Translations under genes and position numbers: made by a program
NCBI GenBank assembly: GCA_003008705.1
Contig: PDUO01000007.1
Location: 30,123 to 94,122 of the forward strand
DNA from: Pezicula radicicola
Lineage: Eukaryota; Ascomycota; Leotiomycetes; Helotiales; Dermateaceae
DNA: 64,000 nt
Reading direction: 5' to 3'
Shown here: piece by piece, positions 14,741 through 19,393 of the stretch
How positions within the stretch are numbered: the stretch's first letter is position 1
How the letters are laid out: each line of letters starts with the position of its first letter
The notes under the pieces: model-generated
Databases searched by the model: none
The model's input: only the letters and a program-made list of their open reading frames with translations
Told to the model about the DNA's origin: nothing

Positions 14741-15565
14741 ATGGTCTCCACTCGGTCCCATCCTAAAGAGTTCCCTGAACCAGACCTCACCCCTACCCGA
14801 ACCGCCGCGTCGCGCCCTCGCAAAGGGAAATGGGCTCATACTCTGTCGAATGCCACACTCATTTGGCTCGCCATTTCTCTACCTCTCGTGTGCTGGGATG
14901 CGGGATATGTAATGTTGCGACCGCATAGCATGCCTGGGGGCTCTCTGCACTGGCCCATCTGGTCTCCCTACGAGCTCTACGGCAAGGTCGACTACATATA
15001 TGGATGGAAAGCATGGAACGAACACAATGGCTTTACTGCCGCGCAGACTATGATGAATATTGTCGAGACTGCCATGTATTTTTACTACTTGTACGTGCTG
15101 TATGTGCATGGAAAGCCATCTACGGCTCCAGGACGAGGAGCACCAAACCCAGCAAAGGTCGGCTTCCTGGGAGAACAGCGATATGTAGATGGCCAAGAGG
15201 GTGCTTTGGCCGTATTGGTTGTATTTAGTGCTGCTCTCATGACTTTGAGTAAAACGGCCTTATACTGTAAGAACTATCTAGAATTCGTTAAAGTCATGGC
15301 TAATGATTGCAAGGGTTGAATGAATACTACAGTGGCTTTGATAATATCGGCCATAATAGTGTCGTTGATCTCATATTCATGTGGATTATTCCTAAGTAAG
15401 TTCATTCTTACAATGGCTCATAGTAATTCTAACTATATCAGTGGTGCATGGCTCGTCCTCCCCTCTTACATAATCTATATCACTGGCAGCGAGATCCTCC
15501 AGGGCTTGTCAATTGCCAGTGGCAAGACGGTTTCTCCCGAAGATCCATTTGTGAAGAGCGAGTAA
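14741..15565 (+). CDS. Multi-pass membrane protein, EXPERA-like, function unknown
   Basis: Exons 14741-15266, 15314-15395 and 15442-15565 give 243 residues. Introns are 47 and 46 nt (GTAAGA and GTAAGT donors, AAG and CAG acceptors), and both joints keep frame. A polar N-terminus (RPRKGKW) is followed by four to five hydrophobic helices. Conserved-looking blocks include WDAGYVMLRPHSMPGG, YELYGKVDYIYGWKAWN and NIVETAMYFYYLYVLY, with NGAWLVLPSYIIYITGSEI at the C-terminal helix. The layout resembles EXPERA/emopamil-binding-type proteins of the ER, but I cannot confirm membership and assign no reaction. It shares its promoter region with scs3. Confidence 0.8.
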
Positions 15566-16031
15566 AGGAGTATAGGTTGTTATGTGGAAAGAGCGAACGA
15601 ACGGATCTGCTTCAGAGAAGTGATGCTGGATGGTCTAGCTCCTGATTTTAAGCTTGTTGATTCAAGCCGAGTGACTGAATATCTAATCTTGTAATAACAT
15701 CCTTCCTTCAAACCCCCGGTTTGACTAGAATGCATTTACGACTTGATGCTTGGTTCATATCGTGTAGGTTATGTGATATTAAAAACTAGAATTCTGTTCA
15801 TGAGGAAGCAACCCGCTACATAATCTCTGGAAGAAAATCAGGAGAAGATCAAAAATAAAATACAGTGGCTCTCCTGCTTTTGTGGTTGGTAAACTACCTC
15901 TAGTACCTACCTATATAGGTGACATGTGAAGAGGTGCAAACCCTAAAAGACGTGACTACCTCCCTGTTATGTAGAAGACTTCCATATATTTAGGTAGATA
16001 AGAAAATTTCCTTCAACAAACACTATCATTT
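15566..16031. other. Intergenic region upstream of the tRNA gene
   Basis: No protein-coding signal was seen. It ends immediately before the first base of the interrupted tRNA-Thr gene. Confidence 0.5.
15985..15992 (+). promoter_or_regulatory. Possible upstream TATA element of the tRNA gene
   Basis: TATATTTA lies 40-47 bases before position 1 of the tRNA. Upstream TATA boxes help Pol III recruitment in some fungi. It could matter here because the internal box A is split by an intron. Position alone supports this. Confidence 0.3.
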
Positions 16032-16043
16032 GCCGGAATGGCG

Positions 16044-16096
16044 GTATGTGGACACTTACACCTCAGTCATTGAACCTTGAACTAACGTCCTTGTAG
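16044..16096 (+). other. Spliceosomal-type intron A in the tRNA D stem (after position 12)
   Basis: 53 nt, donor GTATGT, branch ACTAAC at 16081-16086, acceptor TTGTAG. It splits Pol III box A between TGGCG and CAGTGG. Its length and signals equal those of the protein-gene introns in this window. Confidence 0.85.
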
Positions 16097-16109
16097 CAGT
16101 GGTAACGCG

Positions 16110-16164
16110 GTTAGTACCAACCAAATATTATCTATTTCTCCTTCACAGTCTAATAATTTCTCAG
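16110..16164 (+). other. Spliceosomal-type intron B after tRNA position 26
   Basis: 55 nt, donor GTTAGT, branch TCTAAT at 16149-16154, acceptor CTCAG. Removing it brings G26 next to the first anticodon-stem base. Confidence 0.82.
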
Positions 16165-16175
16165 TCGCACTTGTA

Positions 16176-16205
16176 TCAAGTTGTGTACACCACTCTTAGC
16201 ACTCA
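16176..16205 (+). other. Canonical-position tRNA intron (between 37 and 38)
   Basis: 30 nt, lying one base 3' of the anticodon, where tRNA splicing endonuclease introns occur. It contains TACA (16189-16192), complementary to the anticodon-loop bases TGTA, as expected for the bulge-helix-bulge fold. It does not follow a GT-AG rule at these ends. Confidence 0.8.
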
Positions 16206-16210
16206 ATGCG

Positions 16211-16265
16211 GTAAGACTTGCAAACGCGTTACTCTCTCAAAATCATCCACTTATTCTGCTTATAG
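16211..16265 (+). other. Spliceosomal-type intron C after tRNA position 42
   Basis: 55 nt, donor GTAAGA, CTTAT as likely branch near 16249-16253, acceptor TATAG. Its removal supplies A43, which pairs with T27 to close the anticodon stem. Confidence 0.82.
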
Positions 16266-16302
16266 AAGATCCCTAGTTCAATTCTGGGTTTCGGCACTCA
16301 AG

Positions 16303-16312
16303 TTTTTTTTTT
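16303..16312 (+). terminator. Pol III terminator of the tRNA-Thr gene
   Basis: A run of ten T begins six bases after the discriminator base. Confidence 0.85.
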
Positions 16313-16977: not shown

Positions 16978-19393
16978 TTACTTCTTTTTTCCTCTAGCAG
17001 TAATCTCGCCCTTCTCCCCAAGACCTAGCCTAACTCTACAATCAGGACAGTACCATTTGGTTGTGCGTGAGGGGATGTCGGTGAGGCCAACACATTCGAG
17101 ATGGAACCATTCCTTCTCACACTATCATATAAACCTGTTAGAAACCATATCTCAAGGGTATGGTTCATAGAAGCAACTGGGATTTACTCACATCGGCACT
17201 TTCACAACCAATCATTGTCCCAAAGCTAACACGATTGCAAACACAATACCGTGGCTCATCAGGGTCAATGACATTACCCTCATCATCAACCTCAACCTGG
17301 TCTTCTTCAACGACACCACTCTTATCGTCTTTCCGCTTTTTCGAATTTTTCTTCTTTGGTGCTGCAGCTCGCTTGCTAATTGCCTTTGGACCTTCAATGC
17401 CTGCCCCCCCTGTGACAATACCGGGAGCAGGGCGCTTCGTCCGGCGATTTGCTGGTGCACGAATTTCTGGTGCGGGTGTATTGTGGGCCGTACTAGCACG
17501 ACGGGGTCGATCCTTTGCAACAGTGGAAGCTGGTTCAACACTTGCTGCCTTTCCCCGTGAAGTTGGTCTGCTGACAGCAGCTCGAGCGGATGTTGGACGC
17601 TTTGCTGGGAGTGGTTCTGGGGCTGGTGTTGGGGTTGGCGCGGCTGAAGACTGCCTGTTTGATGTTCTGATGGGCTGTGGCTTCTTCACTTCTTTCTTGG
17701 CATCCTTCTTAATTGTGCCGGGGGGTAGGATTGGCGTTGAGGATTTCTTGGGTGACGAAGGCGTTGGAGGAATATGTGTTGAATCTGTGACTGAAGGCGG
17801 GGCAGTCTCAGAAGACGTGGATGGCGCAGACTCCAGAGCTGCGATAATAGGCTGTGGTGCTGGAATAGGGGTTTCGGTTTTATTTCTCTTAGCATGTGGA
17901 ATCACGGGCTTTGGAGTGTCTGCCTCAATTTTCTCGACATGACTTTCAGCCTCTGCTTCTCGCTTCCTTTTTTTTGGAGCTGCCTTCTTCGGTGTCTTGG
18001 CTGATGTTTTCTTCTCCTCTGCTGGCTCTGCGTTACTAAACAAGTCTTTGACAGCTTGAGCAGCTTTTGCCATCTTATGAGCGGATTCTTCAGCCTCTTC
18101 TGCTGCCTGCTTAGCGAGCTCCTTTGCTTGGTTCTCTCGCTTCAGCTTTTTGGCTTCATTGAGTTTCATACCACGATTGCTAAGCTGGACTTCCTCCTTT
18201 TCCAAAGCTTCAGTGCTGATAGCCCCTTCCTGATAAACCCGTGTTCCGTCATCCCCATCAACGAGTGGTTGAATTGAGTGCGTAATTGGCTCTCCTGCGG
18301 CGTCAGCCTTAATTTTTGCAGCTCTATAAGCTTCGATTCCACGTCCTAGATTTTTCAACTCGCGAGATATCATTGTATCACTTGGGCTCCACACGGCATT
18401 CTTCTTCATCCTCTTTCTCAGCTTCGCCAGTTCGTATGCCGTCAACTGAAGCCACGGCGCATCAGAGCTGCCCAAGACTGCATTCTCCGGAGGTGGCTTG
18501 AGTTTTGCCAAAGCATTGCTTGTTGAAATACCTGCAACTGCACTGTGGACATTGGTGCCCATTCCAAGTGGACGTGGCGGTCGAGGGGGTTTGGGTATTT
18601 TCTGCTTAGGAGCTTTGTCTTTGTTGATTTTGAGCTTAATCGTTCCGCTAACCAGATTTCGACCCGGAGTCGCCCTCGAGGATAAACGGTCATCATCTGA
18701 TGATTCTCCGGTCTCAGAGCCATACGATTCGTAGTCCAATTCATAGGGTGCTAGAACCTCTCCTGGAACTGTAATACGCGGCGCGCGGTGATGGCGTACC
18801 CTCGGTACGTTCTGGTCGGCGACAGGCCGAGCACTTCCGTCAAGGCGTAGAGTGATTTTTGGTTTGGGGGCTCGACTCAGCTGTGGGGACTTGGATCCTT
18901 TCTGGAGATCCGGGCTGAGTTCTCGAGATGTGGGGTAATGATCACGAATTTCTTGCAACTTTGCGTATATATTCCTTGCGCGGGCAAGATGGCGGTCGGC
19001 ATTCTCTGCCATGCGAGATGCCTCTGCAGTAGCTAGAGACCGAGCTCGGACAGACTCGTTGACGGTGGACGATATGTCGGCGCGGAGCTTCAGAGGCTCT
19101 GGTTTCCCGTCGGCAGGCAGGCTTGGGAGCTGACCATAAGTCTTGGTGAGCTCGTTGAGGGAGATACAAGCTTCACGGTGTGTCTGATCAAGGTTTCCAA
19201 CAAGTGTAAGGGAGCGAATCGTGTCGGAAGGGAGGTAATCTGTAAAGTCAAGAAAGTCGGACACGGTGGCTTGCGCATCGGGATCAAGAGGCGCATCAAG
19301 AGCGTCTATGTGATGATTCATGCTGGACATCTTCTGGAGAGCATCTGTGATATTGTTGCGCCTGGGGCTGGTAGTCTCGAGTGGAAGGTCCAT
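16978..19393 (-). CDS. ING-family PHD-finger protein (histone acetyltransferase/deacetylase complex subunit)
   Basis: Exons 17192-19393 and 16978-17121 give 781 residues from the first clear Met. The N-terminal ING domain reads NNITDALQKMSSMNHHIDAL, then LTLVGNLDQTHREACISLNE. A long low-complexity Lys/Pro/Ser linker with several basic clusters follows. The PHD finger spans the intron: CVCNRVSFGTMIGCESAD before it, CEKEWFHLECVGLTD and WYCPDCR after it (GTGAGT donor, TAG acceptor). PHD fingers of this family read H3K4 methylation in NuA4, NuA3 or Rpd3L complexes; which one is not decidable here. The frame stays open upstream to an acceptor-like CACAG ending at 19515, so about 40 more residues and an unseen first exon are likely. 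The true start is uncertain. Confidence 0.9.

Follow-up and report, generated by a model that had tools for sequence, protein, structure and literature searches.

Canonical eukaryotic tRNA introns are located between positions 37 and 38 and are excised by the Sen endonuclease, the exons being joined by the Trl1 ligase. Spliceosomal introns occur in the nuclear rDNA of lichen-forming fungi. An mRNA-type intron in 18S rDNA is named in a title of 1993 that appears in the reference list of PMC11782384, while the introns of fungal U3 genes are described as normal spliceosomal introns on the basis of experiments in S. cerevisiae and N. crassa (PMC5832005), and the U6 gene of fission yeast is reported to carry an mRNA-type intron (PMC10484740). 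In the account given in PMC5832005, published in 2017, U3 and U6 were the only often-interrupted small structured RNAs then known. Archaeal tRNA genes are described as having several introns per gene and introns at unusual positions (PMC4090602, PMC8450103). No precedent for spliceosomal introns in nuclear tRNA genes was found in the titles and abstract openings searched, which covered few subscription papers and no bioRxiv preprints.

The window analysed here, a stretch of 64,000 nucleotides of Pezicula radicicola DNA (G000:C109:30123-94122, from a 61.0-Mb assembly made up of 152 contigs), contains at 16032-16296 a gene that resembles each of these systems in part. As in fungal U6 and U3, short GT..AG introns with branch sites interrupt a small structured RNA gene, but the host is a tRNA, the exons are very short, the internal promoter is split, and most of the interrupted tRNA genes found also have an endonuclease-type tRNA intron. 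The likeness to the fungal rDNA introns, as far as the cited title goes, lies in an mRNA-type intron within a non-coding gene that is not made by Pol II, whereas the rRNA is a Pol I product and a far larger RNA. The insert at 16176-16205 sits where canonical tRNA introns do, in contrast to the other inserts, which run from GT to AG and lie in the acceptor stem, at positions 9 to 18, in or after the D stem, and also in the anticodon stem and variable loop. Several introns per gene at unusual positions are a feature shared with the archaeal genes as these have been described; unlike archaeal bulge-helix-bulge introns, the inserts share spliceosomal ends and a branch motif, and just one of 16 formed a bulge-helix-bulge in a poorly discriminating test.

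The gene is very probably a nuclear tRNA-Thr(UGU) gene with three introns bearing spliceosomal signals and one canonical intron, the transcript of which would be matured by the spliceosome first and by the tRNA endonuclease second. It lies on the plus strand, in the gap between the coding region of an EBP-like gene, which ends at about 15565, and a reverse-strand open reading frame at 17165-19393. The motif CAACAAACA at 16014-16022, common upstream of tRNA genes in this genome, probably marks the Pol III start region. Exon 1 (16032-16043) supplies mature positions 1-12, including the 5′ part of the A box, which is split between positions 12 and 13 by intron 1 (16044-16096, 53 nt, GTATGT..ACTAAC..TAG). 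The 13 nt of exon 2 (16097-16109) complete the D arm and are followed by intron 2 (16110-16164, 55 nt, GTTAGT..TCTAAT..CAG), inserted after mature nucleotide 25, which corresponds to standard 26/27. Exon 3 (16165-16175) holds the 5′ side of the anticodon stem and the anticodon TGT, the canonical 30-nt intron at 37/38 follows (16176-16205), and exon 4 (16206-16210, 5 nt) gives the 3′ side of the anticodon stem. Intron 3 (16211-16265, 55 nt, GTAAGA..ACTTAT..TAG) lies at 42/43, and exon 5 (16266-16296) provides the variable loop, the T arm with an intact B box at 16276-16284, the 3′ acceptor strand and a discriminator A.

The original prediction, that excision of these four inserts leaves a 72-nt tRNA-Thr(UGU), proved exact when the sequence was read directly, as did the predicted intron lengths, the three donors and acceptors, and a run of ten T residues (at 16303-16312) as the probable Pol III terminator. 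ARAGORN identified the spliced 72 nt as tRNA-Thr(tgt). The product pairs at 7/7 positions of the acceptor stem, 3/4 of the D stem and 5/5 of both the anticodon and the T stem, and carries the invariant U33, TTC and G18-G19. The predicted presence of three spliceosomal-type introns next to a canonical one is likewise supported, given that 16176-16205 is the only insert at the canonical position; as regards the predicted branch sites, ACTAAC and TCTAAT bear the claim out, whereas the third, ACTTAT, is present but weak and does not fit YTRAY. When the 30-nt intron was retained ARAGORN still detected the tRNA, with a misplaced anticodon. Neither ARAGORN nor Rfam at its gathering threshold returned any gene or match in the unspliced 64-kb window, and usual annotation would thus miss genes of this kind; the non-canonical intron search of tRNAscan-SE 2.0 is, in the description given in PMC8450103, one for archaea. 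A chance cloverleaf was considered and rejected: among 5000 random 72-mers from the window, a mean of 7.8 and a maximum of 16 of 21 pairs were formed as compared to 20/21 in the product, where the random 72-mers involved no choice of splice points and the product was built by choosing them, and a second locus yields the identical product with a different set of inserts.

This second locus, L031 (C73:68253-68409), was the only one besides the window gene to be found in a genome-wide DNA search with the spliced 72 nt, and its product is the same as that of the window gene over 72/72 nt. It carries a single 56-nt intron (GTTAGT..TCTAAT..CACAG) and a 29-nt canonical intron similar to the 30-nt one in the window, with no counterparts of the inserts at 16044-16096 and 16211-16265. 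Its 56-nt intron agrees with that at 16110-16164 at 40 of 47 aligned bases (0.85, gaps present, as compared to 0.72 with a shuffled interior), and it is placed 2 nt further upstream, so that the dinucleotide CG precedes the intron in one gene and follows it in the other; by plain nucleotide count the two positions are 23/24 and 25/26, equal to standard 24/25 and 26/27. Despite this shift the spliced products are the same. A single mobile intron family was rejected as a source of the window inserts, as those at 16044-16096 and 16211-16265 matched nothing else genome-wide at E ≤ 10 in a search that was run for the window locus and skips very common words; the other matches of this locus were to L031 only. 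Of the second tRNA-Thr(UGU) gene sought as a check on the prediction, an intact form exists (L013) with a different sequence, while the sole near-identical gene found, L031, is itself interrupted. The statement that the spliceosome must process the precursor was therefore too strong, although the reading of the locus as a working gene is itself favoured.

At least 15 interrupted tRNA genes, representing nine anticodons and carrying 17 inserts of 50-63 nt, were found in the same genome: Thr-UGU three times, Lys-UUU, Val-UAC, Trp-CCA and Cys-GCA twice each, and Thr-CGU, Arg-UCU, Asn-GUU and Pro-AGG once each. The Rfam search, in which 63 of 2516 first-look candidates were scored, gave 57 matches, with ARAGORN in agreement on 54 of these, and five of them are interrupted genes: both Val-UAC genes (L055 and L058, intron at 47/48), a second type of Thr-UGU (L052, at 4/5, inside the acceptor stem), Arg-UCU (L056, at 10/11) and one Lys-UUU (L057, at 9/10). 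Pattern searches yielded Asn-GUU (L070, 15/16), Trp-CCA (L102, 10/11), Pro-AGG (L103, 9/10), Cys-GCA (L104, 16/18), the other Lys-UUU (L105, 9/10) and Thr-CGU (L106, on the minus strand of C65, 9/10), and DNA searches a further Cys-GCA (L108, 16/18) and Trp-CCA (L116, 10/11). L106 has the unusual donor GTACGA and a C as discriminator base. The pattern with a branch motif occurred at 189 places, those listed reaching contig C77, as compared to 268 for the reversed control; the CAG version occurred at 80 (control 130) and gained no further gene, and the narrower version at 12 (control 12). As these counts are no higher than the controls the patterns alone are no evidence, and a gene was accepted only if its exons form a tRNA. 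The number of 15 is a lower bound. Six of the genes came from a search that demanded both an intact B box and a branch motif, and the DNA searches for further copies covered three tRNAs, namely Cys, Trp and type 1 of Thr-UGU. Among the 14 interrupted genes tabulated there are 12 canonical anticodon introns. The T arm is free of introns in all genes found, but both the patterns and Rfam require an intact T arm. Exact tRNA patterns had no matches in the viral contigs, bacterial genomes and archaeal genomes searched.

All 17 inserts begin with GTNNG and end with AG, the donors being GTAAG in 12, GTTAG in three and GTATG and GTACG in one each, and the acceptors YAG in 16 and AAG in one. A branch-like YTRAY motif is situated 10-22 nt from the 3′ end in 16/17 inserts as compared to a frequency of 0.129 in shuffled inserts, the exception being 16211-16265, and the joint occurrence of donor, acceptor and branch in shuffled inserts had a frequency of 0.00000. 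The same holds for inserts recovered by searches that are independent of the branch motif (GTNNG 11/11, AG 11/11, YTRAY 10/11). In seven of the 15 genes the insert ends are fixed to about a base by a twin that is intact or has a canonical intron only (L056 by L010, L070 by L061, L104 and L108 by L107, L052 by L013, and L102 and L116 by L118); in the other eight, which have no intact twin, splice points were picked to restore the tRNA. The window introns had been likened to the mRNA introns next door, and the signals are indeed of the same type, although the two mRNA introns examined in the EBP-like gene, at 15267-15313 (GTAAGA..GCTAAT..AAG) and 15396-15441 (GTAAGT..TCTAAC..CAG), both on the plus strand and with boundaries placed by hand from an alignment and the sequence, are slightly shorter at 47 and 46 nt.

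That gene, which is EBP/EXPERA-like, extends over 14741-15565 on the plus strand with two short introns; its product has 847 matches, those named among the best 120 being largely from Leotiomycetes (Coleophoma, Cudoniella, Mollisia, Cadophora and others), and a best match of 81% identity. Some of its relatives are labelled as C6 transcription factors in databases, a label that is probably wrong.

The 15 spliced products form 303/315 cloverleaf pairs, with 7/7 pairs in the acceptor stem and 5/5 in the T stem of every one, as compared to 201/210 in ten intact comparison genes, among which the Gln gene was parsed wrongly owing to the assumption of five bases in the variable loop; canonical introns were placed by hand at 37/38, a choice that bears on loop bases only. 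Four pairs of interrupted genes share every exon base (Thr 72/72, Lys 74/74, Val 73/73, Cys 72/72 nt), but their introns have diverged, with many gaps and agreement at 40/47, 34/50, 43/51 and 43/54 aligned bases, respectively, a similarity that for the Lys pair is no greater than that of shuffles. A third Cys gene, L107, lacks the extra intron, and its exons are identical to those of the interrupted Cys genes. Comparison of the intact Trp gene L118 with the interrupted L102 and L116 revealed six differences, which make up the compensated pairs 28:42, 29:41 and 52:62, and the two differences between the intact Thr-UGU type 2 gene L013 and the interrupted L052 make up the compensated pair 6:67, so that all eight differences fall in compensated base pairs. 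Judged by these comparisons the mature sequence of the interrupted genes is under selection.

A CAAACA-like motif is present within 45 nt upstream of 14/15 interrupted genes, 42/52 other Rfam matches and 76/4000 random stretches, and a T4 run within 40 nt downstream of 14/15, 46/52 and 606/4000, respectively, the interrupted gene lacking the run being L116, which was analysed with a short 3′ flank. In 11/15 genes, that of the window included, an insert splits the A box, so that contiguous A and B boxes are not a general property of the set. Preservation of the A box through the AG and GT ends of the introns was considered and dropped, as the near-matches were no better than those from shuffled introns.

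The interrupted genes are most likely working tRNA genes whose transcripts would be spliced by the spliceosome. The recurrence of the arrangement in 15 genes speaks for this and against the earlier suggestion that the window gene is a recent casualty of intron insertion, a suggestion also at odds with the identical exons and the compensated changes. The more general view that the introns landed in spare copies, now dead or dying, while intact copies do the work is unlikely. It can draw on the existence of intact genes for several of these tRNAs (L013, L010, L061, L107 and L118, with L011 and L001 in addition), owing to which splicing need not be essential, and on the split A box in 11 of the 15. 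A dead gene would however be expected to gather uncompensated changes, and what is seen instead is identical exons between diverged introns, compensated differences from intact twins in 8/8 cases, and a leader and T run retained as frequently as they are elsewhere among the tRNA genes. Similarity between copies could be maintained by gene conversion, but this would neither create compensated differences nor preserve splice signals.

Some algae have tRNA introns at unusual positions that are removed by the endonuclease. Removal of all four window inserts by this enzyme, for which the archaeal introns described at unusual positions (PMC4090602) offer a further parallel, is nevertheless very hard to credit, as introns of the endonuclease type would not be expected to have GTNNG..AG ends in 17/17 and a branch-like motif in 16/17 cases. 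In its favour the L052 insert passed a strict bulge-helix-bulge test (null frequency 0.0025); the failure of the other 15 of 16 inserts counts against it, but 0/12 canonical introns passed either, and for this reason the test discriminates poorly. Spliceosomal introns normally leave Pol II transcripts, and a split A box may weaken Pol III, so that the tRNA might instead be cut by RNase P and RNase Z out of a Pol II transcript that had undergone mRNA-like splicing. This we consider improbable, as the gene lies in an intergenic gap and is flanked by the same kind of leader motif and T run as other tRNA genes, and as U6, normally a Pol III RNA, has such introns in this genome. The U6 match concerned (L115, G000:C3:394362-394523, minus strand) contains two spliceosomal-type inserts, GTGAGT..TCTAAT..ATAG of 63 nt and GTGGGT..TTAAC..TTAG of 53 nt, and joining of its exons gives a U6-like RNA. 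A second U6 match (L114, G000:C146:17702-17803) is uninterrupted and divergent and scores above L115; local GC is 0.46 around it and 0.39 around L115, and it could be a divergent copy or part of a contig from another organism.

With the genes taken as working and spliced by the spliceosome, Pol III would start in the leader and stop at the T run, the 50-63-nt introns would be recognised by U1 and U2 as in mRNA, and the spliced RNA would fold with its D arm and anticodon stem restored, upon which Sen endonuclease and Trl1 ligase would take out the 30-nt anticodon-loop intron. The spliceosome is placed first because what the tRNA endonuclease recognises is the body of the folded tRNA, and because in budding yeast this enzyme works outside the nucleus. 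The exons of 12 and 13 nt are small for a spliceosome, as is the 46-nt interval between introns 2 and 3 before removal of the canonical one, and both count against this explanation. Reverse splicing has been proposed as the origin of the U6 intron and would fit as the origin of the introns described here.

It is probable that this fungal lineage has a two-machine pathway in which part of the tRNA pool is produced from Pol III precursors by the spliceosome and completed by the endonuclease, which, if true, would cover Thr, Trp, Cys, Val, Lys, Arg, Asn and Pro tRNAs, would tie the supply of some of them to splicing capacity, and would add a further class of tRNA intron to the group I, group II and endonuclease types. 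Splicing of tRNA and of mRNA is taught as two separate subjects. Genes in need of both would show that the spliceosome can handle tRNA precursors whose exons measure about 12 nt, and intron gain in genes that encode no protein could be studied in them as a natural experiment.

Other irregular tRNA loci were encountered in the genome. The tRNA-Trp locus L117 (G000:C71:711374 onward) has the segment from the anticodon intron to the T arm in about three tandem repeats, and the tRNA genes L054 (G000:C77:252794-252942) and L059 (G000:C109:672923-673077) each carry near the anticodon a single insert of ~80 nt that looks structured and not spliceosomal.
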